NCBI GenBank assembly: GCA_030407315.1
Contig: JALQPE010002032.1
Location: 1 to 37,073 of the forward strand
Direction of reading: 5' to 3'
Length of the DNA: 37,073 bases
From: Asparagopsis taxiformis
Lineage: Eukaryota; Rhodophyta; Florideophyceae; Bonnemaisoniales; Bonnemaisoniaceae
This document shows, one piece after another, positions 9,590 through 31,535 of the stretch. The notes beneath the pieces were generated by a model that had not been told where the DNA came from, ran no database searches, and worked only from the letters and a program-made list of their open reading frames with translations. Position 1 is the stretch's first letter. The number at the start of each line of letters is the position of its first letter. The position numbers and the translations under genes are program-made.

Positions 9590-9802
9590 CTACGTAATGG
9601 GCGGCCTTAAGCAGGCATGAGGCTTTCGGCCTTGAGGTTCGAGTCCCTGTGGGGGAACCCGAAGGGGTTGGTGTCTGGAAAGACTTTGGTCCCTAGAGGG
9701 AGTTGCAGCCTTTTCCTGCGGAGGTGGTTGTGGTGAGATGTCCACCGAGTAGCGTAATCGCTCCACCTCCTGACGGGAGTGCGACACCTCACTCCCCGTC
9801 AT
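9590..9802 (-). CDS. Small ORF between gag and protease of the gypsy element
   Basis: A 70-residue, Pro/Arg/Gln-rich frame whose ATG overlaps the gag stop codon as TAATG. It ends 2 nt before the protease ATG. I see no domain. It may be a linker or spacer translated by termination-reinitiation after gag, or only the remnant of a gag-pro linker whose frame has drifted. Confidence 0.4.
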   Translation of the reverse strand: MTGSEVSHSRQEVERLRYSVDISPQPPPQEKAATPSRDQSLSRHQPLRVPPQGLEPQGRKPHACLRPPIT

Positions 9803-11804: not shown

Positions 11805-12488
11805 TGTAGCAGGTAGAAAATCCGCTAGAGCGGCAAACCACCCGACAGGTGTCCCGAGCCTCGGTAGAGGAAGTGGTAGAGCAGATGAACCTTATAGGTA
11901 CCCAGCGGGTAGTCTCGTGAGAGAGAAGGTGTCGTTACCCGGAGGGGGTTGTGTGACAAAGGGGTGCTCACGCGAGAGGCGTATTAATGGAGCAAGATGA
12001 CGTAATCCGTCGAGCTGTTGGCTAACCCTAAGGTTTTCCCGGAGAGGGGTTGAACAATAGGTATGCGAACACTGTTCCTGTGGGTCGTAATTCCACTTGA
12101 GTTTACGTTACTCTAGAAACCGTGCCTACTGGCTATTCCAGTGGCCGTTTTATACTAAGTCTACTGTAAGCTAGGGTTAGTGGTTAGGAATAAATATCCA
12201 GTTAGTGACCAATCAGAACCCGATTACTGGCGCTCGCCTACCCGCGAGGTCATTGCCAATAGGCTTACATTGTAATGTATGGCTGATCAGCCTAAGTTAA
12301 AATTTGCCCCTTGTGGGGTCTTGGCCGGGGCCGATAGGCCGGGTGGGGTTATTTGTCAGCCTTAGCTGGTCCTAAGTATAGGAAACACGCCAGTTGGCTG
12401 GTGCCTTCTGATTGGCACATCCCGTAAGTGGGTACCCAATAGGGAAGCGACACGGCTCGATCAGCGAAGACCGCCAGGCGGTACGACA
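11805..12488 (-). repeat. Gypsy 5' LTR (right)
   Basis: This is a 684-bp direct repeat of 41-723 with about seven differences. As the 5' LTR of a minus-strand element it should carry the promoter. CAAT-like motifs (CCAATAGG) are present, but I did not find a convincing TATA box. Confidence 0.92.
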
Positions 12489-12493
12489 CATAC
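12489..12493. repeat. Target-site duplication CATAC (right copy, gypsy)
   Basis: This is the second copy of the 5-bp duplication at 36-40. Joining base 40 to base 12494 restores the copia-1 reading frame. Confidence 0.9.
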
Positions 12494-14991: not shown

Positions 14992-15037
14992 TTAAATTGG
15001 GGCGGGCTGTCCATTTCCAATCCTGGCATACAGCATT
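14992..15037 (-). pseudogene. 3' end of a small minus-strand gene split by copia-2
   Basis: With copia-2 and one copy of its duplication removed, the minus-strand frame from 36881 continues here for 13-14 codons (LYARIGNGQPAPI) to a TAA. An AATAAA follows at once. The product is not recognised. The support is the open frame across the restored site plus the polyadenylation signal, which is suggestive only. Confidence 0.4.
15033..15037. repeat. Target-site duplication GCATT (left copy, copia-2)
   Basis: GCATT abuts the left LTR and recurs at 36749-36753 directly after the right LTR. It shows that the two LTRs 21 kb apart belong to one insertion. Confidence 0.9.
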
Positions 15038-15150
15038 TGATGAAGATCGTAACGTCCTAGCTAGTTTATTGTGGTGCGAGAGTCGGCGCCGGTGTGTATA
15101 TATATAGTGGTGACAGGTGTAAGTGCTGTACTACGTGTGGTCATCCGACA
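15038..15150 (-). repeat. copia-2 3' LTR (left)
   Basis: 113 bp, identical to 36636-36748 by eye. On the minus strand it begins TGTCGGATGACCACACG and ends TCTTCATCA. It contains a TATATATATA box. It is very short for an LTR. Confidence 0.93.
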
Positions 15151-15186
15151 CGGAGACTGGAACTGGTCGCGACGTGGATTCAGGAT

Positions 15187-15188
15187 TG
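15187..15188. repeat. CACTA target duplication TG (left copy)
   Basis: TG precedes the left terminus, and TG at 31536-31537 follows the right one. Two bases alone are weak evidence. The assignment rests on the continuity of copia-2 sequence across the site. Confidence 0.6.
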
Positions 15189-15202
15189 CACTACGGTGTT
15201 GA
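15189..15202 (+). repeat. Left terminal inverted repeat of the CACTA transposon
   Basis: CACTACGGTGTTGA is the exact reverse complement of 31522-31535. CACTA is the name-giving terminus of this superfamily. Confidence 0.92.
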
Positions 15203-15212
15203 GAATGAAAAC

Positions 15213-15562
15213 AGACAGTAAATTTACTGTCTGAGACAGTAAAAATTACTGTCTGGCCAAGACAGTGCGCGGAGACAGTAAAATTTACTGTCTGGAAATT
15301 TCAGAATACTGCTGCAGCAGTAAACTGGCACGAAATCTGGACAGTACCAAAAACAGTAAAATTTACTGTCCAGAACAGTAAATTTTACTGTCCGGAAGTG
15401 TTGCCGCCAGACAGTATGTGCAGACAGTACATTTTACTGTCTGAGACAATACATTGTACTGTATTACTGCACTGTCTGGGGAAATCTGTAGACAGTAGTG
15501 TAGATAGCAAATTGTATTGTCTGCGGGTAGTACCGTGCATTGTTTGACAACACTGTCTGGTG
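15213..15562. repeat. Left subterminal repeat cluster of the CACTA transposon
   Basis: This cluster is many copies of AGACAGT and its complement ACTGTCT, commonly paired as palindromes such as GACAGTAAATTTACTGTC and GACAGTAAAAATTACTGTC. Subterminal repeats in CACTA elements bind the element-encoded accessory protein (TnpA in En/Spm). ORF A or ORF B could be the binding protein here, which is inference. Confidence 0.85.
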
Positions 15563-16090
15563 GAGTGGACTTAGAGGAAATATGGAGCATAGTGTTGGTG
15601 TGAAGGTAAATATTGGAATGGTGTGTGGTATACGACTATATTAATTGTGATGGTGCTTTACAGATAGTTGGGTGCGGGGAAGCTAGATGCTGAATAGGAC
15701 GTTGGAGAAAGGAAGATTGGGAGAACAGAACATATCTGGTTTGTCTCACCGTAAGGAGAGAATGTACATAGTAGCTATAATATGTTGAGTTTAGCATTTC
15801 AAATTATACCTATCTATCTTTGCATTGAAAGTGTCTAGTAGGAGACGTCAGTCTGGTAGCGAGGTGTGGTATGCACAGGACGTGGGTGGTGGCAAAGGAA
15901 AGAATACGCACCATCCACCACTAAATTATGAAAAATAACCGTTACGGAGCACTGGGAAGCATTATTATTATGTAGAGTAGACCAGGATGGATGCATCCAC
16001 TGAAATGATATTTGCTACAACACTGCTGTACTAAGCGTGACATCCTTCAAAGCAATTCTCCTTTTAGCAAACTCCAATTGCAAGGTCAAG
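15563..16090. promoter_or_regulatory. Upstream region of ORF A
   Basis: This region has no repeats of the subterminal kind and no gene. It contains the shared decamer TAACCGTTAC at 15936-15945 and presumably the ORF A promoter and leader. Confidence 0.45.
15936..15945 (+). promoter_or_regulatory. Shared upstream decamer TAACCGTTAC (ORF A)
   Basis: The decamer lies about 145 nt upstream of the ORF A ATG. The same ten bases on the same strand occur upstream of ORF B (19298) and the transposase (28961). The sequence resembles Myb-family binding sites (AACNG cores). Confidence 0.5.
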
Positions 16091-17617
16091 ATGAATCCCG
16101 AAACCTCCGTAAGCATCGCCGCATTTTCCGAAATAACGCGTGAGGGCTTTTCGAACATCACTGCAGAGTTGAAAGCCCTGAGTGATAAAATGGATGCCGT
16201 CGAGAAGAGCACCATTCAATTACGCGAGACTCTCGGAAATGTCGCCAAGACTGTCTCCATGCTAAACACCGATATGCAGGAGGTCAAGAGCATCGTCGAT
16301 GGGCTTCTGAGCCAGGGACAAGGACATCCGAAGAAGATCGCCTCCGAGAAGGACAGGGAACGTCTCCGCATTGCGCAGGATGCGGAGAAATCGTTCACGT
16401 TCGAAATGGTGTGTGCTGTGCTGTGTGCTGTTGTTCCAACGTACACGAAGGCAATGGTGGATAAGAGGGATAGGCATTTCAACGGATGCCAGCTAATCAA
16501 TACGCTGATGTTCGCCAGGCAGAGCAATGAGCGAAAGGATGTGTTCAATAGGACGCTTGCCGGCCGGAACCACATTGAATTGCGCTGCCAAGTTGTGACC
16601 TCTTTAATCAAGAATACGTGTCAAAACAATTCTTTCAGAGAGGGAGGAGACCGTTCCAGCTCCAATGGAACGTCGGAAGGTATCGAACGGTGGAGGGCGC
16701 GGGGGTATGTGACTACCGGGACCATTGAGGAGACAATTCGCGGAACGGACTCTGCTCGCATGGATGGAATGCATGGGACGTCCGAGGGAAGTGATGGGGC
16801 CGCTCGAAAGCAGAAGCGAAGAAAGGTTGGAGACAATGGGCCGTTGCACAGAAAGGAGGTAGGCATCACTGTGACGAAATCGGCACTCACAGCAGTGACC
16901 GGGTTTATGAACAAGTCCAGAGATCATGTGCGAAACCGGTTCATCCGAGATCTTGGATTCGTTCTATACAGTGGGTTTCAAGGTTCAGTCCGAATGGAGC
17001 ATCATTTGCACGACGGTGGGCTGGACATTGAGTCAGTTCCAAGTCTGTACTCGGCGCAGAGGAAAATGAATGCAGCGGAGCGTGCAGCAATGGATGACAA
17101 GAATATGAAGATTCTTCGCGACTTCATTGCAGTGCGAAAAGAAATGCTATTCAAAGTCGAGTACGAAGTTCAAATAATTGGAGAACCGGACAAGAGGTTT
17201 TTGACTAGGAGGATCAATTTAGTAGAGGTTGCACTGAACTTTGCAGTCGCCTACACGCAATGTTCTGATAAGAACATGTTCCTGCGACGTTCAGAATACT
17301 CCTTGCAATTCATCTACATACTTGCATACGGGTTCCGAACGATTTTGAAATTTCAAAGTGGAACAGAGGTGGAAGGAGCGCAAATCCGGGAAATCAATGA
17401 AGCAGTGAAACTGCTTCTTCCCGGGGAGCGGGTGAGTAGTCGGTTCATGAATGAGGAGGTTTTGACTATATCGCGTGATAGATATGAAGAACTGAACGTA
17501 GACGATGGGGGGGAATCAGTGCTGGAGGAGAGCTTCAGGTCTATGGAAGAGGACGGAGGAGATGCAGAATATGTGAAGGTATTCGTCGATGATGAAATCG
17601 AGAATGAAGGGGAGTAG
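16091..17617 (+). CDS. CACTA ORF A: coiled-coil protein of unknown function
   Basis: The 508-residue protein starts at ATG 16091; the same frame opens earlier with GTG only. Residues about 10-75 have heptad spacing of a coiled coil (EITREGFSNITAELKALSDK...). A basic patch RKQKRRKV near residues 239-246 looks like a nuclear localisation signal. The segment after residue 255 is mixed helical (TAVTGFMNKSRDHVRNRFIRD), and the last ~45 residues are strongly acidic. I do not recognise a family. In CACTA elements the second gene usually encodes a DNA-binding accessory protein that binds subterminal repeats. An oligomerising nuclear protein next to the left repeats fits, but there is no direct evidence. 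It converges with ORF B. Confidence 0.8.
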   Translation: MNPETSVSIAAFSEITREGFSNITAELKALSDKMDAVEKSTIQLRETLGNVAKTVSMLNTDMQEVKSIVDGLLSQGQGHPKKIASEKDRERLRIAQDAEKSFTFEMVCAVLCAVVPTYTKAMVDKRDRHFNGCQLINTLMFARQSNERKDVFNRTLAGRNHIELRCQVVTSLIKNTCQNNSFREGGDRSSSNGTSEGIERWRARGYVTTGTIEETIRGTDSARMDGMHGTSEGSDGAARKQKRRKVGDNGPLHRKEVGITVTKSALTAVTGFMNKSRDHVRNRFIRDLGFVLYSGFQGSVRMEHHLHDGGLDIESVPSLYSAQRKMNAAERAAMDDKNMKILRDFIAVRKEMLFKVEYEVQIIGEPDKRFLTRRINLVEVALNFAVAYTQCSDKNMFLRRSEYSLQFIYILAYGFRTILKFQSGTEVEGAQIREINEAVKLLLPGERVSSRFMNEEVLTISRDRYEELNVDDGGESVLEESFRSMEEDGGDAEYVKVFVDDEIENEGE

Positions 17618-17661
17618 TATCGGATGAAACCAGTTTCGGTGTAGTAGACGAAGAATGAAGA

Positions 17662-17667
17662 AATAAA
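17662..17667 (+). terminator. AATAAA polyadenylation signal after ORF A
   Basis: AATAAA lies 45 nt after the ORF A stop codon in an A/T-rich stretch, a typical 3'-end position. Confidence 0.55.
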
Positions 17668-17892
17668 ATTTCTGTTGAGGTGAATTTTGTAATAGATGGA
17701 AGTAGATAGGTGCGAGACATCAGGAAACCAGTCAGACGATAGTGTCAAGTCGAAGGAACAGCGCAGAGACAGGTAGTGGAATAGTCGAAGTAGGAAGGGG
17801 CGAGGGTATCCGTCTTTACTAGAAATTGATGGCCACAGGAGCTCTAGAATGGAATACCCAGGAACAGGATAACTACGGATAGGTGTGCTTTA

Positions 17893-19254
17893 TCATTTTT
17901 GCTCCGGACTGCAGGTGGCAGGTGGAGGAGAGGGTGGGTGGGTAGTGTCTGAATCCGCATTGAAGCCAAGACGAGAGATAGCCTCATAGCCAATGTCTTC
18001 AAGCTCCTGGCATATAGTAGTACCACTGAAAATACAGCAAGGTAAGCGTAGATGTAGTGTACCAAACGTCTCTGCGGTTGATAGAGGCTGGAAAGTGCTG
18101 TAACAAGCTCGGCGCTGAATACGTCTCCACAGTAACGAAAACGTTGCTCCATAAGTAACAGTAGCCTTATCACGTAGGTGGAAAGAGTCCACGATGCTAG
18201 ACTGTGATAGTTGGCTAAGACATAGGGGATGTAAAAATGTATTGTTGACATGGTCAAACTCGTAGGAGTCTCTGCAAAGAACTGTCATACGTTGGTCTGG
18301 GCTGGACAGGACGTAAGCAGATGAGCCGACGAGAAATGCGGAAGAAGGAGCATCATGAGAGCAGTCAACGTCGACTAGATTTCCTAAAATTCGGACAATC
18401 GATGAGCTGCCTCCATCGCGTTCCGCCCTGCTCTTCACCAATATTTTCTGGAACCCGTGTTGCGAGGTACCTATGGAGTCACATAGTGCCTGAAAGGTGG
18501 GGAAAATGATGGAAAGATCCGACTCATTTCCAGAGGGAAAGGTGATGTCCTCAAAGGACGGCAGGAAGAGAACATCACGATTCTCTTTCGCCTTGCATTG
18601 AATGGCAATAGTGCGGAATTGAGCAAGGGAGCAGTCAGCCTGTACTCTGATTTCTTCTTGCGATGTTTGTCGCATTCCCCTGGAGTGCTCGGATTTTGTC
18701 ATCCGGAGGGAGAGGGGCTTGTCCGTGTACACACCAAGCTTCTGAAACAGAATGCTACATACAGTCAGAGCAGAGGAGGTCATGGAGCTGTTGGAATCGA
18801 ATGGAGGGGGAAGAGGATGTTTGGCAGCTGACTCCAGCTTTTCCAATCTTGCCAGCATTTCTGCTATGGTCTTCTTCATTTGATCCGCAGTGCAATCTTG
18901 AAGGATGCCGCGGTGGCGGTGGCGAGTGTGGTCAATGCCGTAGTCCGGGTCTCTCTCTGCTGGGGATGCAGGTGAGTCCATACTGCGAAGCTCACCACTT
19001 CGCCACGGGAGAACCCTTCCGGAATCCTTGTCGACGAGCTCGTTACGATCTGAAATCTTGACTTGAGAAAGGGTAGAGTCGAAACCATATTCAGCTTTGT
19101 ATTCGAGCAATGCATGGAGGAATGGGTCTGTTTCGGTCTTGACCTGAGTAATTTCCTTGACGATTGCAGACCACCACACAATTTTTCGTTTCCTCCCAAA
19201 CGGCCGAAGTTCCCATTGAACTTCTATAACGTCGTTTGGAGCGAGAGGAAGCAT
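17893..19254 (-). CDS. CACTA ORF B: unknown protein with possible Tudor/SH3-like N-terminus
   Basis: A 453-residue uninterrupted frame from ATG 19254. Residues ~8-85 follow a pattern seen in Tudor, Agenet and PWWP-like barrels: a start VIEVQWE, an aromatic pair VWWSAIV, LEYKAEYGF, and a closing VLPWR. Such folds read methylated lysine or arginine, but the similarity is by eye and weak. A helical segment (CTADQMKKTIAEMLARLEKLES, shortened here) lies near residues 120-142. The C-terminal half has no recognised motif. It converges with ORF A and diverges from the methyltransferase gene C across a 513-bp spacer. A chromatin-reader partner of the SET protein is an attractive but untested idea. Confidence 0.75.
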   Translation of the reverse strand: MLPLAPNDVIEVQWELRPFGRKRKIVWWSAIVKEITQVKTETDPFLHALLEYKAEYGFDSTLSQVKISDRNELVDKDSGRVLPWRSGELRSMDSPASPAERDPDYGIDHTRHRHRGILQDCTADQMKKTIAEMLARLEKLESAAKHPLPPPFDSNSSMTSSALTVCSILFQKLGVYTDKPLSLRMTKSEHSRGMRQTSQEEIRVQADCSLAQFRTIAIQCKAKENRDVLFLPSFEDITFPSGNESDLSIIFPTFQALCDSIGTSQHGFQKILVKSRAERDGGSSSIVRILGNLVDVDCSHDAPSSAFLVGSSAYVLSSPDQRMTVLCRDSYEFDHVNNTFLHPLCLSQLSQSSIVDSFHLRDKATVTYGATFSLLWRRIQRRACYSTFQPLSTAETFGTLHLRLPCCIFSGTTICQELEDIGYEAISRLGFNADSDTTHPPSPPPATCSPEQK

Positions 19255-19767
19255 GTTGGGATAGCTATGGGATAGAATTGTTGTATTAGTGAAAGCCTAA
19301 CCGTTACCTTCTGCTAAAGAGTAGTATATACTAGGAGGATTGGAAAGGTCCAGAAGAGATGTTTAGGTGGTGTAGAAATAGAATGGACAATTGACAAAAT
19401 TGACACGTCAGTGTGGATGATGTCTGCCATGAACTGATTGCAGCATAAAATTTGATGTGAATAATCGTTCTAGAAGTGAATGTCGGATGCATACGATTGG
19501 ACTACAAAGATACGCTTAGAGATGTTACGGGGCCCAATAAATTGCATGGAAAAATATTTTGAGTATTACTTTAGTATTACATTGATTATTGAGCTAACAG
19601 TCGATGTAGTTATCTTGTAAAGGTTCGGACAGGGGTGGAAAGGAAACAGCCACCGAAGTGCTACCACTCGCTGACACTTTGTTTTAAACAACCAACTTCT
19701 GCTTTGCGCCACCCTGGTCAAGCAGCAACCAACTATCCCTTTCTTAAAAACTCTACCTTTGTTCGCC
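19255..19767. promoter_or_regulatory. Divergent promoter region between ORF B and ORF C
   Basis: A 513-bp non-coding spacer between two outward-reading genes, so it should contain both promoters. TAACCGTTAC lies 44 bp from the ORF B start. No copy is seen near ORF C. A pyrimidine-rich leader precedes the ATG of ORF C. Confidence 0.55.
19298..19307 (+). promoter_or_regulatory. Shared upstream decamer TAACCGTTAC (ORF B)
   Basis: Identical to 15936-15945 and 28961-28970. It lies 44 nt upstream of the ORF B ATG, in the spacer shared with ORF C. Confidence 0.5.
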
Positions 19768-22700
19768 ATGGAAGGAACGTTCCACAATCACGGTGAAAAG
19801 CACGACGGATGGGTGTTCATCGACCCCAATCAAGTCAGCAAATTCGTATCGATTCGCGATGTTGATGCAAGTCATGTGGAAGCGCTCATGGAGAGCATTC
19901 GCAACAGCGGTTATGACACAGCTCATCCCGTGACTGGCAGGTTTCGAGAAGGCGTTCTGGAGATATTGGATGGAGCGCACCGCTGCATGGCAATTGTACG
20001 TGGAATGGAGAAGGGCGTCTTTCCTCCTGGCGTTACGATTCCTATGCGAGAAGAGTCTATCGTGGCGGACACCAACAGCAGTACTGCTGTTGTGCTGGAC
20101 CGTGTGAGAGCGACGACATCCAACGACATTGCAGGCCTGCAAAGGCGCATGATGTTTGTTGAGTATCTGATGATCGCCGTTGATCTCAGAGACGAGTACT
20201 GGGTCCAAAAAGGAAAGGACAAGTACGCTCATATTTCGTCTGTGAGGATGGCCGATGTGTTGGGCTGGATCAAGTCCTGCGATCCAAGCGGCCAAATTGC
20301 TTCAAGCCTGAGTGGTAAACCGCAGTACAGCTCATGCATGTCTATCCTGGCTGTGCTTCGGCCGTATCACCGAGCAGAAGATTCGAGTGCGATTGATTTG
20401 CGTCTGTGGCAAATGTTTTGTCATGCATGGGGACTCAATGCAGAGATGGGTGATTCTCCGAGGATGGTTGAGTTTCCGAAACAGGTGGGGGTGACTAGTT
20501 CTCGTGCCGTCGAAATGTTTGGCAAGACACCCCGCGGAGAATTGTCCTCTCCACTGAACCGCGAACTGCTTTCGAGCAGGTACTTTCTAGACGGCGCTAC
20601 ATCCGACATGCAAGATTCTTTGCAGGCTAGCCAGAAGCGGTTCAGGAGGCTGATGGTTATGATGTGCCAGTGTATCTTGGCTATTCGCAGTAAGAAGATG
20701 GGCAGTGCGCCATCTAGGCGGGCCAGAGCCACATCCGGGGCCATTGGTGGTGGTGGAATGGTTGGAATTGCAACATCCAGTGCGCAAGCCAACCAGCTTG
20801 GATTTGTTGTCGACCGTGTGTTAGCTGCGTGGGATACCGGGGCAAGAGTGTTGGGGTATGAGGATGTTGAATCGATGTGCTGGCCGTTCATGGTATTCGA
20901 TCCTGCGAGCCTTTGCTTCAGGTCACTCCCGAATCGGTCTGATGGCTGCGCGGTCGAGGAGCATCGGAAAAACCTGACCATTGTCCCGAAAACTGTAGAC
21001 AGTGAAAACGGGTTCTGTGCCGACCTTCCAGTGGCTGTGGATGCAAGGCTGCGATCATTGACAAGCGCCTTCCTGCTGTCGATACGCCAATGTGTCACTG
21101 AGGTGAATGTGTTCGCCGAGCGTGGTCAGCTGATGCAGAGACTTCGAGCCTTGCTTTTCGACACTCCTGACAAGTTCGGATTGAACTCGTTCATGCGAGC
21201 CAAGTTGAACACGTCTCATGCCCTGGATGGTCAGAGGAGGCTGAAGGCTTGGTTATTGCGAACCCGAGAGCAACGAAAGCTTCCTCTGACCATGGATGAG
21301 TTGCACAGTCTTGAGGATACGCCCGAGCCTGGCATCCTTGAAGGTGCACCTGCGCAGATGGAAATATCCGCAGCAGTGCCAAACAATGGCAGCGAGGATA
21401 TAGAAGAGGATAGTCTGGAGCCACAGAGGAAGAAGGCTAGGCTGGAGCGCGGTGGTGGAGAGGACGATAATGCGGCGGTTGCTAGCGAAACAGCAACAAG
21501 AGAAGGTGCGGCCGAGGATGACGCTATGGAGGTTGACACTGTATCGCCTACAGAAGCACCGCTCGTTGACGTCGGAAAGGAATCCAAGCCGGAATATGTC
21601 ACCAAGCTGGAAGCTGTGATGGGGCGTTACATTCACACTGTGAATTGTGACGCCACTGATGTAGCCAAAGAGGTGGAGGACAAAATTAGTTTCCTGGAAG
21701 ATGGCGTGTTGGAGGACAGTGTTCAGCTTGTGCTCACTGATCCTCCATTCAACACGAGGCGGGAAGGCGGCAGAGAAAACTCGGAGTACGATATTCTGGA
21801 GCCGGAAGAGTTGGCGAGTGTTGCGTGTGAAATAGTTCGAGTTCTTCGGCCTGGCGGTCATGCTCTAATCTATTCCAGCGTGCGCCAACTCGTGGCATGG
21901 ATGGATGCAATCAGAAATGCCGAGCCTGGCAAGATGATTGTGGACAGTGTTCCAGTCGTGCTATCTCGCCGACCACACAGCTTTACGTCCAATCCATCGA
22001 CGAAAACGTGCACACTGCATAATATGCACGATTTCGTTATCCATGCGTATAAGCGGGGGAAGGGTATGGCTGCATACGATATGGTGGATTACAGGTTGCA
22101 CAATCCGGACATATCGAGGCACCCTGGGTTCACCAACGCGATTGACAACGTTCCGAGGTTGTCGGCTGGTGAAGCTCAATACGATGGGCAGAACAACCGA
22201 CTGCGCCATGAGCAGAAGGCGTTGACCACTCTTCGTGAGCTTCTGGAACGATTTTCGAAGCAGAACGATATCGTGATGGATTTCTTCTCGGGAACATACA
22301 GCACAGCCATAGCGTGTATGACGTTGAGGGATGGTACGTATCGTCGGTTCATTGGGTGTGAGAAGGAAAAAAGGTGCCACGATGCATCGCAGGAGTGGAT
22401 ACTGCATGCTTTCGTCAGTGAGGTGAAAGCCGGGCGATATGGGGGGATCTTGCAGCGTGAGGTGGAGAGTATTCTTGGGGACGAGTCGGTACCGGTCACA
22501 GGAAAAGCTCCAAGGCTTCGTCAGAAGCACATCTCAGATGCACCAGAAGGTTTACCTGCTGTGACAGCATTGCCGAACCATCTGCTTGTGTTCGTTGCGT
22601 CAATGAAGAAGGACGGTTCTATGCTTCACAGATTGAGCGGGGTGCCTATGGACCAGTGGCCGGCCGAGGACATGCACTCGTTTTGGAGCATAGACCCGGA

Positions 22701-23234
22701 CGCGATTCTGGCTGCTGATGCCGCATTCTACGGTGTCTATGTTTCGCAATCGGAGGTAAGAGGTGGTGGGTTTGGCGTATTCGCGGCGAAGAAACTGAAG
22801 AAGGGGACGGTCATTGGCTGGTACAACGGGACGATTTTCTATGCGAAGATTCGAGACTCGGAACCGCAGAGATCAGTGATGTACGGCCCGGAAGGATTTG
22901 GTGCACAGGACAGAGGTTCCAGGACTACAACATGGAATTGGAAACCACGTACATAGGGAGGGGTGCACCTGTTCGGAAGGTCTGGCTCGTTCCAGCGGTC
23001 TATAATTGTACCAGCTACCTCAATGATTGTCGGGTCATTGACGGAACGGAGAAAGCGACCGAGGTGAGTCGAACACAGTCAGCCGAGTTTCGACAAGGCG
23101 ATGCCATAGACAAACCGGACTTTGCTTCGAATATCAAGAATCCCCATGCTGTCAAGGTCGTTCTGACCAGAGACGTTGAAGCTGATGAGGAGATATTTGC
23201 TGACTATGGTAGAAAATATTGGCCAGCTAACTGA
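19768..23234 (+). CDS. CACTA ORF C: ParB-like domain, DNA amino-methyltransferase and SET domain fusion
   Basis: It starts at ATG 19768 (an earlier in-frame TTG is ignored). Residues ~13-95 form a ParB/sulfiredoxin-like domain (VFIDPNQVSKF ... ILDGAHRCMAI, the G-x-H-R box at 69-72). After ~400 unrecognised residues comes an acidic linker with a basic patch (RKKAR, about 555). The methyltransferase core is DPPF (658-661), RVLRPGGHALIYSS, a motif-X-like segment (RHEQKALTTLRELLERF) and then FSGT (841-843) with IGCEKE. DPPF before FSGT is the beta-class order, and the Asp favours adenine-N6 over cytosine-N4. The SET domain begins near 985 (GFGVFAAKKLKKGTVIGWYNG) and continues in the frame 22923-23234 (NCTSYLNDCR, EIFADYGRKYW). 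The first frame stops at 22956, so a 47-nt GT-AG intron at 22876-22922 or a one-base indel is needed to join it. ParB-methylase fusions are known in phages and bacteria, so lateral capture is likely. Confidence 0.88.
22876..22922 (+). other. Candidate 47-nt intron within the SET domain of ORF C
   Basis: GTGATGTACG at the donor and GAGGTTCCAG at the acceptor bound 47 nt. Removing it joins codon TCA to GAC in phase 0 and links the two SET halves in one frame. It is very short, and a one-base frameshift in this stretch would have the same effect. Confidence 0.4.
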
Positions 23235-23521
23235 GCTACTTTGATAGATTTGAGTAAACACGCATTGACAGAGACAATAGACTGTGCATCATCTTCCAAG
23301 AGCGCTAGATATTATAGACTACACTACAACAATCGTGACATGACTGCAGGAAGGCATCTGCGGCCTGGAGTGCAAACTATCCACTTTTCAACTGCTATAC
23401 CTATGGATACGAAAGGGAGAGAAACTAGAAAGATGTGAGTGCGAAATTGTGTAGCAACGCAGCATGTAGAACACCAGTAACAGAGCGATGTAGGAGAAGC
23501 AGTCACCCCATTACAGTGCGG
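23235..23521. other. 3' flank of ORF C
   Basis: I see no gene. No AATAAA is visible within the first 100 nt after the stop. The region leads into the palindrome cluster. Confidence 0.4.
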
Positions 23522-23958
23522 GCCGTTTACCGGGGATGCTGACAGCAAAGTCATCGTTACGATGACTTTGCTGTAAGAAAACAAATCATTACAGCAGCCA
23601 TGATTTCTTTACCGGGTAAAAAAATTGTGGCCGCTGTAATGAAACGTTTTCTTACAGCAAAGTCATCGTAACGATGACTTTGCTGTAAGAAAGCAAAACA
23701 TTACAGCGGCCACAATTTTTTACCCGGTAAAATTTCTTGCTGATTTTTTACCCGGTAAAAAATTCTTTGGCCACTGCAAGGAAACGGTTCCTTACAGCAA
23801 AGTCATCGTTACGATGACTTTGCTGTAAGAAAACGTTTCATTACAGCGGCCACAATTTTTTTACCCGGTAAAGAAATCGTGGCTGCTGTAATGATTTGTT
23901 TTCTTACAGCAAAGTCATCGTAACGATGACTTTGCTGTAAGGAACCCTGGTAAACGGC
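23522..23958. repeat. Palindrome block 1 (foldback-like, 437 bp)
   Basis: The outer ends GCCGTTTACC (23522-23531) and GGTAAACGGC (23949-23958) are inverted repeats. Inside are four copies of a 37-nt palindrome (18-nt arms TTACAGCAAAGTCATCGT around one A or T), alternating with TTTACCCGGTAAA palindromes and CATTACAGCGGCCAC-like links. The block as a whole folds back on itself around a centre near 23740. It could be an internal foldback or MITE-like unit, or a functional array within the CACTA element. Confidence 0.9.
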
Positions 23959-23970
23959 TTCAGCTGTAAG

Positions 23971-24048
23971 CAGCAGGGAGTTTCGTCCTTCTCCCTTCTT
24001 GGTAAAGGTACCTTTACCAAGATGGGAGAAGGACGAAACTCCCTGCTG
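23971..24048. repeat. 78-bp near-perfect palindrome
   Basis: The arms begin CAGCAGGGAGTTTCGTCCTT and meet at GGTAAAGGTACCTTTACC, with one mismatched pair. A transcript of either strand would form a stable hairpin. Confidence 0.9.
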
Positions 24049-24132
24049 TCTCACATGAGAAGCGAAGTGTGAAGTAGGGAACATCACGGGAGGATGGTTT
24101 GGACGGCTGTTGGTCGCAAAATCTACTCCTTG

Positions 24133-24176
24133 TGCCGTGAGCCACAGCGACCATATGGTACCTGTGCCTCACGGCA
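24133..24176. repeat. 44-bp imperfect inverted repeat
   Basis: Arms TGCCGTGAGCCACAG and CTGTGCCTCACGGCA (one mismatch) flank a 14-nt loop. Confidence 0.8.
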
Positions 24177-24192
24177 TAAAATATATATTCAA

Positions 24193-24222
24193 CCCGCCCG
24201 GGCGGGAACCGGCGCCGGTTCC
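24193..24222. repeat. Overlapping G+C palindromes
   Basis: CCCGCCCGGGCGGG (24193-24206) overlaps GGAACCGGCGCCGGTTCC (24205-24222). Both are perfect palindromes. Confidence 0.85.
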
Positions 24223-24530
24223 GGTGCACTATAGTCGTCAATAAGTAGGACTCTAGCTACTCACTATACAACTATAATCGTAAGGTAGGATAGCCTAAGA
24301 TCGTAGTACGGAAGAGACGGATGGGAGGGTGTGTGTAGAGGAAAATTAAGGCGGCAGTACGAGTAGCCTATCGTGGTAATAGACGAGTATTTCATTGCGA
24401 GAGGGGGCGTGAGGGGGGAAACGAAAGGCGTCAGTCGTCACCAGAGAGGCTGGGATGCTGAAGGCAGAGTAGAGAAATGGGGGAGAGGGTGAAGCCAGAC
24501 TGCTTACAGCTTTGGCAGTTCCGGCGGGGT
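24223..24530. other. Spacer between palindrome blocks
   Basis: 308 bp with no gene and no large palindrome that I can see. Confidence 0.5.
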
Positions 24531-24933
24531 GCTGACAGCAAAGTCATCGTTACGATGACTTTGCTGTAAGAAAACAAATCATTACAGCAGCCATGATTTC
24601 TTTACCGGGTAAAAAAATTGTGGCCGCTGTAATGAAACGTTTTCTTACAGCAAAGTCATCGTAACGATGACTTTGCTGTAAGAAAGAAAACATTACAGCG
24701 GCCACAATTTTTTACCCGGTAAAATTTCTTGCTGATTTTTTACCCGGTAAAAAATTCTTCGGCCACTGCAAGGAAACGGTTCCTTACAGCAAAGTCATCG
24801 TTACGATGACTTTGCTGTAAGAAAGCAAATCATTACAGCTGCCACGATTTTTTTACCCGGTAAAACATTCTTGGCCACTGTAATGGAAACGTTTTCTTAC
24901 AGCAAAGTCATCGTAACGATGACTTTGCTGTAA
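24531..24933. repeat. Palindrome block 2, direct repeat of block 1 (403 bp)
   Basis: This is a direct, slightly diverged copy of about 23538-23941. It has four more copies of the 37-nt palindrome and the same TTTACCCGGTAAA spacers. It lacks the outer GCCGTTTACC arms of block 1. Confidence 0.9.
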
Positions 24934-25036
24934 GCATACCTCCCTCCATCCTCTCAGATCCTCTCCCCACTACTTTGCACCAATCCACCACCGCCCTAGA
25001 GTGTACAATTCATATGTGATGCATCTGGTTATTCAT

Positions 25037-25042
25037 TTTATT
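25037..25042 (-). terminator. AATAAA polyadenylation signal of the transposase gene
   Basis: TTTATT on the plus strand reads AATAAA on the minus strand, 12 nt beyond the transposase stop codon. Confidence 0.5.
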
Positions 25043-25054
25043 CTTCCCTAAAAA

Positions 25055-27451
25055 TCATGCAGCCCTCGGTGGAAATCCGTCTCGCCTACATAGTGCATAT
25101 ATCTCTCCACCCTCCAGCAGTCCGGGTCCGTGCCTTACCTCCCTCATGTTCTCATCATATTCGCATACACTCCCATTGCAATAGTGCATACCAAACACCT
25201 CAGTGACTCCCTCACTCATCTCCACAATTACTGTTCGTCGCCTCTCTTCGACCTTGAACACTCCTTCATCAGTTTTTTGCAAACCCAGGCAAACTCCATA
25301 AGCTGTACCTTGCTCATCTCTCGCACTCTCGTTCCTCAGGATAAAGAACGCTAGAACAATAAAAAACCGCGGTTCATAATTAATTCTTCCCCGCATTATC
25401 TCTGATGTGAGACGAGACGCCGGGTACAGAATCGCTTGTGAAGTTGCACCATCCTCACATTTCATCTGTTCAGGGCAAACAGCATGGATGATAGCTCCTG
25501 ATTCTAGAGAGCCAGACCTCTGCACTGTTTTCCTTCCCCACTCTGTCGTAGTGCTTCTAGAAACTCTTCTCACCCATTCGGCATACTTTCCACACCCGCT
25601 TGTTCCGCTTCCGTACCTTTCGGTAAAGAACCGTTTGAAAACACCTACAGCACCCTCTGCCATATCACATTTTCCATTCATGTACTCCTTGACCTCGTCA
25701 ATAGATATACCTCCATGCCCTCTCCACGTCACAATTTCACCATCCGCCGACAATATCTTTCCTCGACGCTGGGAGAGAAGCTGGAGAACCGGTTCCTGGA
25801 AGCAGTTTTTCACTACCTCGTCTTCCACATCTATTTCTCTCCCTAGCTCCTGTGAAAGAACGTTGACCATTTGAGAGCATTCGGACGAGGACCAATGTTG
25901 TGGCTCCATGCCGATTTCGCGCAAAACAATGGCCACTCTCGTCTGCCAGTCATCCGCAAGAACTAATTCCAGCGCTGAAAGCTGTTCGCTTTGGTGATTG
26001 GACATTCTCACACCTTTCTTCAGCGGCTGATGCATCCGTTCGAATATAAGCTCCTGCACGTGCTTCACAGAGCCGTAGGCAGGAAGCGTATGAACACAAA
26101 ACTCGACAAGACGATGAACATTAGGCTTGTCCAAATGTGCTCCTGCTCCCTTCACTTTCCGACAATACTCATTCAACGTCTCCACGTAGTCTACAGTTCT
26201 TCCCAGAATGTATTCATTCCTGCCACCTTCTCCGTCAGCCGTCTCTACTTCATGGGGACCGTCTTTCCACCATACGGGCATGAAACTAATACACGAAACC
26301 AGCTTCTGAAACATCACTACTAGTTTGACGGCCCCATCAAATTTTTCACGATGACCTTCCCCTTTCCCATCCATCATTCGAGCTGCGTTTTCGAATGCCA
26401 TAGGTGCTATCAGAAGCACACTGAATATGTCACTCATGTTCATGGAAAGCAGATTGTTGGTTCCAAATAAACGGTTCTGCCTTCCCATCCTGAACTTCTT
26501 CAGAGCGCCCAGAATTTGCAATTCAGCTACCTCTCGAATTCGTGGGCTGGCAGCTGAAATACAAGCGTTCAGTACATCTTGTGCCAGTCCAGACAATAGA
26601 TGGTCAGGTGCTATCACTGCGGAACGGTACGGGTCAAAAATTGCTGGGACAACTGAAACTCCGTTTTCCGTCTTCGGTACTTCTTCCTGCACTGCTTCCA
26701 AGGAAGTGCTCAGGACATGAAATGGTAAATCTTCCCCTTCTTCTGCAGCCAGTCCGAGAGTGCGAAGCTGGGTTTCTGTGGCATCCTTACGTGTCGATGC
26801 ATTCCGATACTTGCTCCTGGCATGCGTCGATGTTTGCCCGTTCACTACCGAAGTGTATGCATTCTTCGTGCCACCAGTACTGCTCAGGTCATATTTGCGG
26901 AAACTGCAGATGTGGCACGGAGAGTTTGATGTGTGTCCAAGAACATCCAGGGTATGTGAAACTGCAGGATAGTCTCCAATGCTCCCCACTGGGTCTAGAA
27001 ATACCACAATATCTTCTCCCTCTGCATTTTTCGTTGGGAAACCCTCTGTGCTTCCTCGCACTATATCTTGAACGATATATCGCAATACACAATTTGTGGA
27101 CACTCCCGGAGGTGGCAAACCAATCACTCGAACCGCTTGGTAGCTTCCCCTTTTCCGAGGTGGTAGATTGAGAGGTAACATATAGCATCCACCAAAACTT
27201 CCCTTCCTGCTTGTGAATGGTTCGAAGTCATCCGTGTAAAGGAGAAATCGGTAAACAAAGTAGTTTCGACCATCCTCCAGCTTTCCCCAACATGGTGCAT
27301 CTTCTCGCGGAGACGCTGGGTGCCATTGCGACCTGTGGTCTCCGAAACCATCCGAGAACACCCCTGAAACACGAATTTCTTCATAGTTGGGGCTTCCTAG
27401 TCTATCGGGCGGTTTTCTGGCTTCAGCAAAGCTCGCGCCCGTGAAAAGCAA
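25055..27451 (-). CDS. CACTA transposase, Tnp2-like catalytic region (second exon)
   Basis: This would cut and paste the element at its CACTA ends. The frame is open from about 27526, but usable coding probably begins at a splice acceptor near 27416. Numbered from 27451, the RNase-H-fold core has YTDDFEPF (D74/D75, first catalytic Asp region), a NLPPRKRG segment, FLDPVGSIGDYPA (D160, second Asp), and a following PCHICSF Cys pair (179/182). The DDF...PF, LPP...R, DYPA and PCxxC series matches Transposase_21/Tnp2 of CACTA elements. A later segment with PDHLLSGLAQDVL and helical stretches may hold the third acidic residue, which I did not assign. No chromodomain is seen. It converges with ORF C across the palindrome cluster. 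Confidence 0.85.
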   Translation of the reverse strand: MLFTGASFAEARKPPDRLGSPNYEEIRVSGVFSDGFGDHRSQWHPASPREDAPCWGKLEDGRNYFVYRFLLYTDDFEPFTSRKGSFGGCYMLPLNLPPRKRGSYQAVRVIGLPPPGVSTNCVLRYIVQDIVRGSTEGFPTKNAEGEDIVVFLDPVGSIGDYPAVSHTLDVLGHTSNSPCHICSFRKYDLSSTGGTKNAYTSVVNGQTSTHARSKYRNASTRKDATETQLRTLGLAAEEGEDLPFHVLSTSLEAVQEEVPKTENGVSVVPAIFDPYRSAVIAPDHLLSGLAQDVLNACISAASPRIREVAELQILGALKKFRMGRQNRLFGTNNLLSMNMSDIFSVLLIAPMAFENAARMMDGKGEGHREKFDGAVKLVVMFQKLVSCISFMPVWWKDGPHEVETADGEGGRNEYILGRTVDYVETLNEYCRKVKGAGAHLDKPNVHRLVEFCVHTLPAYGSVKHVQELIFERMHQPLKKGVRMSNHQSEQLSALELVLADDWQTRVAIVLREIGMEPQHWSSSECSQMVNVLSQELGREIDVEDEVVKNCFQEPVLQLLSQRRGKILSADGEIVTWRGHGGISIDEVKEYMNGKCDMAEGAVGVFKRFFTERYGSGTSGCGKYAEWVRRVSRSTTTEWGRKTVQRSGSLESGAIIHAVCPEQMKCEDGATSQAILYPASRLTSEIMRGRINYEPRFFIVLAFFILRNESARDEQGTAYGVCLGLQKTDEGVFKVEERRRTVIVEMSEGVTEVFGMHYCNGSVCEYDENMREVRHGPGLLEGGEIYALCRRDGFPPRAA

Positions 27452-28857
27452 AGTAACATGGTGGATGCTTCTCCGACCTGCTCTTTCAAATACCTGTTCA
27501 CCAATACGACGTGTGGAACAATATCACCCTCTTCCATTCCAATTGGTAATAGAACGGTTATCACGTCCCCAGCTCGTGTTCCTTTTCCCTTGGCTCCTGC
27601 TCCGATTACACATTGCGATATCGCTCGCAGAGCATGCTGCCTCTCCCATTCCAATAGATGTGACATTCGCGGCTGCAGATATTTTTCGACATGCACATCA
27701 TGCTCACCGTCGTGTCGAGCCTCATAGGTAACTATGGTCCTAGCATGAAGTTCCCACAACGACGTAACCGCCACTCTTCTCCTCTTCGGTTTCCCACCAT
27801 CTCTGTCATTCTTCCTGAACCCTTTTGCTCTTTCGATGACGGCAACCTGACGAGCTCCTGGATGACATCGGATTCGAATTGCTGTTCCATCAGGTACATA
27901 AATGTGCTTCAAACCCTTTTTCCCATCGCTGTCAATGGGAACAACTGCTGTGCGAACGAATGGGTCGCTCAAAACACCCCTCCTGCACTTTGCAATGAAC
28001 GAATCTTCAATGCTGCACTCTGCGGTTGATTTTTCTCCTTCTGAGCTTCGATTGTTCGCATCACTGCGGAATGATTCAAAGATTGGTCGAGTCTGGACAT
28101 CTTTCAGAGCCCATGTGCTTGGGAGTACAATACGAACTTTCGCCATTCCTCCACAATTGTCTCTGTCATCTGTTGTTCCACGGGTTCCTACTGCACCTCG
28201 ATGCTGTGCAGCTCTTGCTCCGCTCTTTCGAAGGTCTATCGGAAACTCGATGTCACAGCTCTTTGCATAGCAGTGTTTCCTCAAGAATGGTAGTATCTTC
28301 TGTCGCATCACAGAGTCCGACGGGACGTGCTCACTTGGATCTCTGCGGAAATTCATTCCGAACAGGGTACCTTCATAGTGGGCTCTTGTCATTCTTTGAG
28401 TTCCACTCAGCTGAAGAGCCCCATACATCGCAGGCCATTGTAGTAATGCCTTGAAATCACCACATGCTTCATCCCCAGCATTTCGGTCTATCGGGCCTCC
28501 AGTTGAAATGGAATCAGAACCTCGTCCGGTTGCTTCTTCCGATTCCATTAGCGTGCTCGATGCTACGTAGATGTCACTTCCAGCTTCATCGTTGTTGCTG
28601 TACACATCAATACAACCTTCTATTGTGTCACCCATAGGGATTGGGGACTCCAATAGGTCATCTGTGGTACACTCACGTCGTAGCTCATTACCTCTCGGGA
28701 TTTCTTTGTTCATGCAGGCTGCATCACTGCTGCGGATTTCTCCCTGCAGTTTCCCAGGAAGCTGTTTACTGGGACTGGCCACATTGAGTGAATCGAATCT
28801 CGCCTTTGTCCTACGACTTGTGGTTTTCTTTCGAATAGGAGTCCGTCTCGGAGCCAT
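27397..28857 (-). CDS. CACTA transposase N-terminal region (first exon)
   Basis: A 486-residue frame from ATG 28857 with a very basic start (PRRTPIRKKTTSRRTKAR), likely a nuclear localisation or DNA-binding tail. Recognisable Tnp2 motifs are absent from this part. It contains several basic patches (GKPKRRRV) and ends VNRYLKEQ before running out of frame. It overlaps the catalytic frame. Removing a 77-nt GT-AG intron (27417-27493) fuses the two to one protein of about 1,240 residues, a normal size for Tnp2-type transposases. It could instead be a separate ORF. TAACCGTTAC lies 104 nt upstream. Confidence 0.7.
   Translation of the reverse strand: MAPRRTPIRKKTTSRRTKARFDSLNVASPSKQLPGKLQGEIRSSDAACMNKEIPRGNELRRECTTDDLLESPIPMGDTIEGCIDVYSNNDEAGSDIYVASSTLMESEEATGRGSDSISTGGPIDRNAGDEACGDFKALLQWPAMYGALQLSGTQRMTRAHYEGTLFGMNFRRDPSEHVPSDSVMRQKILPFLRKHCYAKSCDIEFPIDLRKSGARAAQHRGAVGTRGTTDDRDNCGGMAKVRIVLPSTWALKDVQTRPIFESFRSDANNRSSEGEKSTAECSIEDSFIAKCRRGVLSDPFVRTAVVPIDSDGKKGLKHIYVPDGTAIRIRCHPGARQVAVIERAKGFRKNDRDGGKPKRRRVAVTSLWELHARTIVTYEARHDGEHDVHVEKYLQPRMSHLLEWERQHALRAISQCVIGAGAKGKGTRAGDVITVLLPIGMEEGDIVPHVVLVNRYLKEQVGEASTMLLCFSRARALLKPENRPID
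27417..27493 (-). other. Candidate 77-nt intron joining the two transposase frames
   Basis: On the minus strand the donor is CAG|GTATTT and the acceptor GAAGCCAG|AA, with a pyrimidine-rich CTTTGCTTTTC upstream of the acceptor. Splicing joins AAC-AG to A-AAA-CCG and continues in the catalytic frame. Confidence 0.6.
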
Positions 28858-29816
28858 CTTGATGTTTTTGTTCTTTTCTTCTTCGCTCAGTTTTGTTGCA
28901 TAGAATACAACTCTAAACTTCTATGACATGACTACTATCTCAATACAGTACTACTACTTTTAACCGTTACGAAACCTTTCCAGGCTTTCATTCGATCCAA
29001 TGAACTGGTTCACCACAATGCTTTGCCCTATGCTCATTGCTTTATGCACATTGATTGCTATTTCATCCGGACTCAACATCGTTTTGCTATCTTGTATCGC
29101 ATCCCCTAACCACAAACCCAGCCAAGATGTATCCATTTCCGGAAAACGGCCGTTTATTTCGCAGTGATGCTCTAGGCACTAATACTGAATCTGATTTTCT
29201 CATACACGTACTTCCTACTCGTATACTCTACCATTTTCGGCCCTATTTACAAGTTGAAAGCACAATCTCTCGTTGAATCGTACTCGGTGTGATATCTTAA
29301 ATTAGCATAAATTTATATATTGCAATGCAGATTCACTGCTCGCTTGCAACATGAAAATTATAAAATTTCTCCCACACTGCTGTTTCCTAGCCGCCCACAT
29401 CCACGTGGCCCGCTTTGACTGCCTGCCAAGTGTGCTCAGAGCATGCAATGACGTCATCGATATATACCGTCCAAATCATCACTGGAAGCGCGGACTCCTC
29501 GTCCAGGAAAGTGCGCCATTTTTCCTACTCCTCGCCTCCCCCTTTCCAGTAGGCCCGATATGCTAGTGTTTTTCCTATATTTCTGTAGTGATGACGTCAT
29601 TATAGACTAGAGAAGGCGGTAGAAGATACAATAATTTTGCGCCTGTTCTGCCAGGTCATGTGCTTCAAAGCGTAATTCGCACCCTAGGTATCGTTTTTCT
29701 GGGCCTCCCATCGCACCGCTCCGTTTCAAATTCATCCCTCTATTGTTAGAGTACACGTCATTTCCGCCCGCAGAGTGCTACTTAAACAACAGATTCTGGA
29801 GATCCCTGTTTCCATC
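28858..29816. promoter_or_regulatory. Transposase upstream region
   Basis: Non-coding DNA holding TAACCGTTAC at 28961-28970 and two TGACGTCA palindromes (29449-29456, 29592-29599) of the CRE/bZIP type. Short open frames (29055, 29351) have no support. Confidence 0.45.
28961..28970 (+). promoter_or_regulatory. Shared upstream decamer TAACCGTTAC (transposase)
   Basis: Third identical copy, 104 nt upstream of the ATG at 28857. Relative to this minus-strand gene the motif is in reverse orientation, as it also is for ORF B. Confidence 0.5.
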
Positions 29817-29957
29817 TTCATATCCGTCGGAAGCAAAGCAACAACCCTGGCCGTGGAAGCCGTATAGATCATCTAAACTGCTTCCAAAGCGTAAGTTTTA
29901 GATCATCAATACGGCTCCCAAGGCCAAAGTTGTTGCTTTGTCTCCGACGGATATGAA
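29817..29957. ncRNA. Long imperfect hairpin, possible small-RNA precursor
   Basis: Two arms of about 60 nt (left starts TTCATATCCGTCGGAAGCAA, right ends CTCCGACGGATATGAA) pair with only scattered mismatches around an ~18-nt loop. No coding potential is evident. Length, near-perfect pairing and small loop resemble a plant- or alga-type microRNA or siRNA hairpin. Transcription is not shown. Confidence 0.45.
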
Positions 29958-30659
29958 CCATGATGGTACGTTTCCACAACTCACGCCACTAACCCAGTTT
30001 TCTATTCGTTTTCTCTTTCTCAGGTTTCCAGTCGGTGAGTGTTCCAATTCTACTTTCATTTATCTTTCTCTCTTACCACTTCTCCACTAATTTTCTTTTC
30101 TGCCTGTGAGTACATATCTCAATTTGGGATGCAATGGTATTTGTTAAGGTACGTTAGTCTCCTAATCACCATCAATTTCCCTCTCCAATTCAACGTCACT
30201 AACTTGTTTCCTTTCTCTACATCATTTTTTCTTCTTCTCTTCATTTCCTAGCTTATTCATGCAGCTCAATCAGTTGATAGATTTCTAGACTTTTCTAGTA
30301 GTTTTAGTTTTACTCGTCGGAATAGTGTTAGTTGTAGTAGCATTTTTAACATAGGGATTGTTTATTCTCAATGTAGCCTGCGCAAATAAACAAATCCAGA
30401 GTGAAGCTTCCCATATCGCACCCTCTTAGATTGCTACCTATCCTACCGCGTATACCTCTCGCTAGCTCATAGTCACTACGAATAAAAATTCCTAGCCGTA
30501 CTATTCTGTCCATTCCCATATGAATACCGTCCATGCCCCATCCTCATAGCGCTAGAACTGCCTTCCTCTACCCCAGAAAGATGCCCACGACAGCGTGACG
30601 CTCCATCTCATCCACCACTCCCAGACACCGAATTTTACTATATCAGGACACTACTTTTA
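29958..30659. other. Non-coding spacer before the right subterminal array
   Basis: A/T-rich with a long pyrimidine-rich stretch (about 29995-30110). I see no supported gene. Confidence 0.5.
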
Positions 30660-31184
30660 CTGTCTCCAGGTGCTGCCCAGGGCAGCACGAAATACTGTCT
30701 CCAGGTGCTGCCCAGGGCAGCACGAAATACTGTCTCCAGGTGCTGCCCAGGGCAGCACGAAATACTGTCTACAGGTGCTGCCCAGGGCAGCACAAAGTAC
30801 TGTCTACAGGTGCTGCCCAGGGCAGCACGAAATACTGTCTACAGGTGCTGCCCAGGGCAGCACAAAGTACTGTCTACAGGTGCTGCCCAGGGCAGCACAA
30901 AGTACTGTCTACAGGTGCTGCCCAGGGCAGCACAAAGTACTGTCTACAGGTGCTGCCCAGGGCAGCACAAAGTACTGTCTACAGGTACTGCCCAGGACAG
31001 TGAAAATCACTGTCTCCAGGTACTGCCCAGGACAGTGAAAATCACTGTCTCCAGGTACTGCCCAGGACAGTGAAAATCACTGTCTCCAGGTACTGCCCAG
31101 GACAGTGAAAATCACTGTCTCCAGGTACTGCCCAGGACAGTGAAAATCACTGTCTCCAGGTACTGCCCAGGACAGTGCACCGTG
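30660..31184. repeat. 15-copy 35-bp tandem array in the right subterminal region
   Basis: The first nine units carry the perfect palindrome GTGCTGCCCAGGGCAGCAC, and the last six carry GTACTGCCCAGGACAGTGAA instead. Each unit begins CTGTCTCCAGG or CTGTCTACAGG. The unit is exactly 35 bp throughout. Open frames across it are repeat artefacts. Confidence 0.95.
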
Positions 31185-31521
31185 TTGGTTCCATCTATTG
31201 TCCCAGGCAGCGTATTTCACTATCCGGCCATGTTGCCTTGGCCAATACAAAACACTATCCGCCAACACTGCCCAGTACAGTAAATTACATCATATCCAAC
31301 TATTGAATAAATCATTAATTTTTACTGTCTCCATTCACTGCCTCAGACAGTACTGTGAGACAGTGTTTTTTACTGTCTGCAGACAGTGTTCCGTACTGTC
31401 TGCCAGACAGTGCAAATCACTGTCTCCAAGTGTGGCATTAATTTTCATTTGCCGCATAGTGATTTTTACTGTCTCAGACAGTAAAAATCACTGTCTCGCA
31501 GTACTGTCTGAGGCCCCCTTT
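31185..31521. repeat. Right terminal-proximal ACTGTCT/AGACAGT repeats
   Basis: Irregularly spaced copies of the core also found at the left end, for example TTTTTACTGTCTCAGACAGT near 31470. These are the counterpart of the left subterminal cluster. Confidence 0.8.
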
Positions 31522-31535
31522 TCAACACCGTAGTG
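31522..31535 (-). repeat. Right terminal inverted repeat of the CACTA transposon
   Basis: TCAACACCGTAGTG, reverse complement of the left end. TG follows, and then copia-2 sequence resumes (TGGTCATCCGACAG). Confidence 0.92.

Follow-up and report, generated by a model that had tools for sequence, protein, structure and literature searches.

Can a transposon write epigenetic marks on its own DNA and chromatin? The question is raised by a 37,073-nucleotide stretch of the genome of the red alga Asparagopsis taxiformis (GenBank assembly GCA_030407315.1, contig JALQPE010002032.1; hereafter the window, and contig C1906 in our same-genome searches), in which a DNA transposon with CACTA ends carries a gene that joins a ParB-like region, a predicted DNA methyltransferase domain and a SET domain. 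The gene and its parts are:

19768..23234, plus strand: ParB-like / DNA methyltransferase / SET gene, with one frame break within the SET part of the window copy
19810..20052, plus strand: ParB-like region with the GAHR box
21622..22425, plus strand: beta-class amino-methyltransferase domain (DPPF ... FSGTYST)
22735..23231, plus strand: SET domain, in two reading frames in the window copy

From the ATG at 19768, the GAHR box, DPPF and the FSGT box share a single frame that runs to about 22,880, while the remainder of the SET domain lies in a second frame that ends at the stop at 23232-23234. The first frame scores 61 bits against the Pfam model N6_N4_Mtase (PF01555; cut-off 26.7) and 12.6 bits against Pfam SET, the latter under the cut-off of 22.4 because the domain is split over two frames. 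P0001, a protein from an ENA source, is 1155 residues long, unbroken and 98% identical to the window protein, and scores above both cut-offs (N6_N4_Mtase, 60.8 bits; SET, PF00856, 27.6 bits). A sequence-only reading of the window had proposed a beta-class amino-methyltransferase with DPPF and FSGT, which these scores bear out, and a C-terminal SET domain, which holds for P0001 and falls short in the frame-broken window copy. It had also proposed an N-terminal ParB-like GAHR box. The box is present, and the N-terminal piece matches PHROG 4272 (E 4e-6) and PHROG 1033, a ParB-like partition protein (E 0.004), but the N-terminal region of P0001 has no ParB match in Pfam at E<=10. True ParB CTPases are recognised by a GERRxR-type CTP motif and a helix-turn-helix; the GERRxR motif is absent from P0001, where the box reads DGAHRCMA. 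When the whole predicted model was compared with BFVD, ParB-named matches were recovered at low TM-scores, and the N-terminal piece predicted alone was uninformative (predicted local distance difference test score, pLDDT, 43.5).

With the methylase part of P0001 as query, a family of 12 proteins including P0001 was defined, whose other 11 members are 38-57% identical to it in that part; one of these relatives, P0011, is named from Chondrus crispus and annotated as an adenine-specific methylase gene. The VIA rows cover the methylase part only, and missing ParB or SET rows there carry no meaning. Both Pfam models, N6_N4_Mtase and SET, match all 12 members at E<=0.1, and PHROG 4272/1033 matches are found in two of the 12 at E<=0.01. 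Motif IV precedes motif I in beta-class amino-methyltransferases, and DPP[FY] is present in 12/12 members with motif I about 180 residues further on. The DY of the SET domain is kept in 10/12. The nearest solved and named methylase relatives are adenine enzymes, which together with DPP[FY] points to adenine as the probable target base; a contrast between DPPY and SPPY in amino-methylases is drawn in the accessible part of PMC8885841. The nearest solved SET sequences are of the KMT2C/D type, the match covering the N-terminal half only. Sequence and the predicted fold are both used for the domain assignments.

To what does the gene belong? Copies are numerous in the same genome, which has a size of 141.5 Mb and is assembled in 3156 contigs. 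The left end of the transposon occurs at 40 places with 100% identity over 112 bp (the best 40 of 872 candidates), the right end at 40 full-length places with 100% identity over 112 bp (the best 40 of 1119), and the gene at 40 places, each on a different contig (the best 40 of 3826), with an open frame of about 100% identity in every case, covering residues 1-1155 in 39 and 1-1154 in one. As these gene places are the best scored, they give no measure of the number of broken copies, which are under-reported. The proposal that all three parts form one polypeptide is upheld by the 40 open places, and separate, non-fused genes are ruled out by these together with the unbroken P0001.

Two samples of copies were read. 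The first comprised 20 copies fetched by the left CACTA end, from the 40 listed left-end places: the gene was whole or partial in 18, while L041 was cut by its contig end and L038 was without the gene. Eight of the 20 held the full open frame of 1155 amino acids and L037 a shorter one of 1104; three of the 11 without an open frame (L031, L041 and L046) leave their contigs before the gene ends. The second sample comprised 20 of the 40 listed gene places, picked by the gene alone, and in 17 of them the exact left CACTA end lay no more than about 25 bp from where it was predicted. The flanks of these 17 all differ from one another and from those of the first sample. Among the other three, the sequence of L101 showed a variant end, CACTACGGTGTTGGG; L099 had, by eye, sequence of the 453-residue open reading frame (ORF) of the element at the expected end position; and L086 gave no clear call there. 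In the copies tested the gene travels as cargo of the transposon, and for them the exact ends and the variant end of L101 reject an ordinary host gene, the outcome that the sequence-only reading had named beforehand as its refuter.

The transposon itself consists of the following:

15189..31535, no strand: CACTA-ended DNA transposon, 16,347 bp long and shortened relative to a larger form
15189..15202, plus strand: left terminal inverted repeat CACTACGGTGTTGA, 14 bp
31522..31535, minus strand: right terminal inverted repeat, the exact inverse of CACTACGGTGTTGA, ending at 31535
15187..15188 and 31536-31537, no strand: left and right copies of the 2-bp target-site duplication TG
15200..15560, no strand: left subterminal ACTGTC/GACAGT repeats, 16 hexamers within 15189-15600
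30600..31510, no strand: right subterminal ACTGTC/GACAGT repeats, 33 hexamers within 30600-31535
16091..17617, plus strand: ORF of 508 amino acids from ATG, with sub-threshold family matches only
17893..19254, minus strand: ORF of 453 amino acids, with no family match
23543..24930, no strand: array between the methylase and transposase genes, which converge on it, with eight perfect palindromes of 31 bp, all identical
25055..28857, minus strand: transposase gene, in two overlapping frames in the window and a single frame of 1267 amino acids in P0013

The claim that a CACTA transposon carries the gene is confirmed by these perfect termini, which at 15189 and 31535 form the sole exact inverted pair of 14-mers in the whole window that starts with CACTA and is separated by over 1 kb, and by the ends of the gene-picked copies. 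The further claim, of one transcription unit bounded by CACTA termini, fails because the element has four genes, on both strands; the termini lie far outside 19768..23234. Of the 63 ACTGTC/GACAGT hexamers across the window, 49 fall in the two end zones. A 2-bp target-site duplication was found in three of the four elements read at both ends (TG in the window, TG in C334 and GC in C74), while the dinucleotides flanking the C44 end pair do not match; in C92 the right end was not found within the stretch fetched. The 3-bp duplication given for EnSpm in the accessible text of PMC12730594 was not seen among the elements read at both ends.

The transposase search returned 45 proteins including P0013, none with a precomputed Pfam domain. 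D543, D629, the candidate glutamates E936/E940 and a CxxC are invariant in 26/26 aligned transposases, and the acidic residues are probably catalytic. Two histidines eight positions apart are also conserved (H915 in 26/26, H923 in 22/26), whereas the H(3-4)H pair of the CMCT clade, as described in the part of PMC12730594 available, was not conserved among the 26 in a simple pattern scan. One of the 26 relatives matches Plavaka (PF18759) weakly (E 0.04), which neither P0013 nor the window transposase does. A solved-structure search with the transposase gave nothing useful. The element has CACTA...TAGTG inverted repeats, a target duplication within 2-5 bp and acidic residues with C(2)C downstream of the second of the two D residues, as in CACTA/EnSpm transposons, and it is named here by its CACTA ends with no lineage assigned, because the H(3-4)H pair is not conserved.

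Within the palindrome array the cores are 100% identical, while their 20-nt flanks average 45% and 84% identity. Folded as RNA, 23520-24080 gives -415.6 kcal/mol, against -143.8 for shuffles. An Rfam scan of 15000-31700 at gathering cut-offs gave no match.

How representative is the window copy? Thirteen of the 20 copies fetched by the left end reach beyond the palindrome array, and all 13 enter a common tail that is absent from the window; the contigs of L031, L032, L041, L045 and L046 end before that point, and L038 and L048 leave the element earlier. In C347, 9,612 bp separate the equivalents of window positions 24010 and 24532, against 522 bp in the window, making this copy about 9 kb longer. 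Paired ends give element sizes of 25.3 kb, 27.2 kb (C44, a pair without a matching duplication and possibly not one element) and 18.5 kb (C334). A right end was looked for 16.3 kb beyond the left one in 10 copies and found in none, because the copies are longer; one of the 10 stretches was still inside the element. The larger form, of about 25 kb, is commoner than the window form, and the window copy looks like a deletion form that arose between palindrome blocks. Other variants were also observed. In L036, L043 and L048 the same stretch of about 1.3 kb is missing (element positions about 3007-4305), with loss of part of the 453-residue ORF; these three are a sublineage of the transposon. L038 keeps just the initial 1021 bp of the element, beyond which 8.9 kb has no match to the window; it either derives from the element by deletion or is another element with the same end.

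The larger form holds extra genes:

contig C347, 25093-45092 (L033 and L081): a pair of paralogues, each with a ParB-like DGSHR box

The added part of C347 comprises an ORF of 794 amino acids with a DGSHR box followed by one of 292 amino acids and, upstream and in another frame, an ORF of 915 amino acids with a DGSHR box. The two DGSHR genes are paralogues of each other, with identities of 33% and 36%, and their C-terminal domains are 40% identical in alignment and share HTD ... H ... R, which we take to be the motif of 2-oxoglutarate dioxygenases. Searches with hidden Markov models (HMMs) and against PDB gave no support for this assignment, and a dioxygenase-like domain is offered as a lead only. 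In the HMM searches GmrSD_N overlapped the DGSHR box, but its E of 0.25 carries no meaning, and a profile comparison of the DGSHR genes with the methylase family found no ParB link.

What might the gene do for the transposon? We lean, by a modest measure, towards the explanation that its 1155-residue protein marks the DNA and chromatin of the element and so keeps it expressed and mobile. The ParB-like domain would bring the protein to the transposon's own DNA, the methyltransferase domain would methylate adenine there, the SET part would act as a protein methyltransferase on the chromatin of the element, and the marks would counter silencing. An anti-silencing role is favoured because N6-methyladenine reportedly goes with permissive chromatin across eukaryotes (PMC12695648), because the SET relatives are of the KMT2C/D type and because many copies have open genes. 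A more elaborate scheme is improbable: here the ParB-guided adenine methylase-SET writer would be joined by the two ParB-boxed, dioxygenase-like proteins as modifiers or erasers, and all would act on the palindromes as parS-like sites to set chromatin state and the timing of transposition.

Several observations weigh against the self-marking explanation. Both predicted enzymes carry atypical signatures. The textbook S-adenosylmethionine-binding motif is FxGxG, and it reads FxGT[YF] in 12/12 family members, the second glycine being replaced by tyrosine or phenylalanine; FAGMFT, likewise aromatic at that position, occurs in ORFs of the viral loci L010 and L016. The catalytic signature of SET domains is NH...ELxxDY, and ND replaces NH in 9/12 members while in P0008 and P0010 neither the N nor the DY is present, so that some members of the family, if not more, may have an inactive SET domain. 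The ParB-like region is absent from seven of the 12 gene models, the DGAHR box being found in five. The window copy itself has a frame break in SET, and another in its transposase, and the model of the whole protein is of modest confidence (pLDDT 60.8; predicted template-modelling score 0.37). Among the 19 readable flanks of the first sample 17 are different and two pairs are identical, and some contigs are therefore possibly one site assembled twice. Variable codons across eight gene copies comprise eight synonymous and eight non-synonymous changes, too few to prove selection.

The variation in SET also bears on a simpler explanation, in which SET is degenerate or serves in protein binding and the DNA mark alone protects the element from nuclease or aids transposase binding. 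DPP[FY] and FxGT[YF] are kept throughout the family while the catalytic positions of SET vary and are lost in two members, yet SET retains Pfam support in 12/12 (E<=0.1), P0001 exceeds the curated cut-off and DY persists in most members, and we regard this explanation as possible, though somewhat doubtful. The marks might instead restrain the element, by recruiting or mimicking host silencing and so limiting copy number, or by gating transposition to the hemimethylated window after replication. Dam restrains some bacterial transposons in the latter way. The marks of the bdelloid enzyme N4CMT go with transposon silencing (accessible text of PMC8885841), but N4CMT is a host gene rather than transposon cargo. 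The 40 places at 100% identity for each end (best 40 of 872 and of 1119) and the 40 near-identical open gene places (best 40 of 3826) do not suggest strong self-limitation, and self-restraint is unlikely. CACTA elements often carry captured genes, and a host or viral methylase-SET gene could have been picked up on a single occasion and retained although the element gains nothing from it; the plain annotation of the Chondrus relative P0011 as an adenine-specific methylase gene would agree with this. A passenger would however be expected to decay, yet all of the best 40 of 3826 gene places are open, and diverged relatives keep both the methylase and the SET domain, making simple passage very unlikely.

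Could the element have come from a virus? Aligned against viral contigs, the family gave at least 20 loci with methylase matches at 21-33% identity, whereas the window translation of P0001 as sole query found no match there; the 'phages' records gave four matches, to the methylase part only. The transposase alignment found no relatives in viral_contigs or genome_contigs. On these scans a viral origin of the whole element is rejected. The phage-type protein L001 (IMG/VR, 535 amino acids) resembles the transposon protein in that a single chain carries a ParB-type box, here GNHR, ahead of a DPPF methylase, but it is about half as long, is 28% identical in the methylase, to which its profile match is limited, and has no SET domain that we could see. 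BFVD A0A6J5MMM5, named ParB/Sulfiredoxin, aligns over 897 columns of the transposon-protein model.

The surroundings of the transposon give a relative age for the insertion:

15038..15150, minus strand: long terminal repeat (LTR) of the copia element that received the transposon, 113 bp, with an identical partner at 36636-36748
15033-15037 and 36749-36753, no strand: GCATT duplications outside both copia LTRs

The retrotransposon around the CACTA element contains a copia reverse transcriptase (Pfam). As the transposon is nested inside a copia element with identical 113-bp LTRs and GCATT flanks, its insertion is probably younger than that already young retrotransposon. The 13 bases past the right end of the transposon (31536-31548) equal the end of the copia LTR (TGGTCATCCGACA), and a complete LTR is already present at 15038-15150. 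The window also holds a second copia reverse transcriptase at 12412-14043 and, on the minus strand within 5724-11727, a Ty3/gypsy-type retrotransposon with reverse transcriptase, RNase H and integrase (Pfam), whose ORF at 9802-11727 is taken as gag-like from its position alone.

How new is such cargo? Large En/Spm (CACTA) families of Chondrus crispus measure 16-20 kb with 4-5 ORFs (PMC6431247, in the part accessible), and the window element resembles them in its CACTA type, its 16.3 kb and four genes, and a cargo relative named from Chondrus; the accessible part of that account names no methylase or SET gene, and the original entries may note such cargo. The closest precedents for modification enzymes as cargo are in other groups. 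Fungal EnSpm, Plavaka and other DNA transposons carry TET/JBP and are comparable in that DNA transposons, some of a CACTA-related clade, encode a DNA-modification enzyme, but that enzyme is a 5-methylcytosine oxidase rather than a methylase, and the available text of PMC12730594 mentions no ParB or SET fusion. The same text, citing 2014 Repbase reports, notes that in Phytophthora both HarbingerS and MuDR elements bear genes for SET histone methyltransferases, which are likewise transposon-borne but belong to other superfamilies and are mentioned there without a DNA-methylase fusion (PMC12730594). Dam-like adenine methylases in DIRS retrotransposons, and DNA methyltransferases in dinoflagellate and charophyte retrotransposons, also give elements their own DNA methylase, though in retrotransposons and, in the accessible text, without mention of a SET or ParB fusion (PMC5890265). 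The bdelloid N4CMT is a captured bacterial amino-methylase that differs from the present protein in being a host gene, in having an SPPY motif and N4-methylcytosine as its mark, and in carrying a chromatin reader rather than a SET writer (PMC8885841, accessible text).

The Chondrus En/Spm families were reportedly described by Kojima, Bao and Jurka in 2013 in Repbase Reports, as cited in PMC6431247. No ParB-methylase-SET fusion in a transposon was found in the literature searched by titles and the starts of abstracts, Repbase Reports and most subscription journals lying outside that search. The statement of the sequence-only reading that it knew of no described example stands for the fusion within this literature and gives way for the components, since CACTA elements with several ORFs, SET-bearing elements and adenine-methylase-bearing elements are already published. 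The parts are each known from other elements, and their fusion as transposon cargo is new within the literature searched.

The element is thus a mobile one that encodes a predicted writer of DNA-base marks and a predicted writer of protein or histone marks in one chain, in many open, near-identical copies. It makes directly testable whether transposons write their own epigenetic marks, and its diverged relatives, one of them from Chondrus, allow comparison. If the self-marking explanation is true, a phage-like ParB-methylase arrangement would have been put to use within a eukaryotic transposon.

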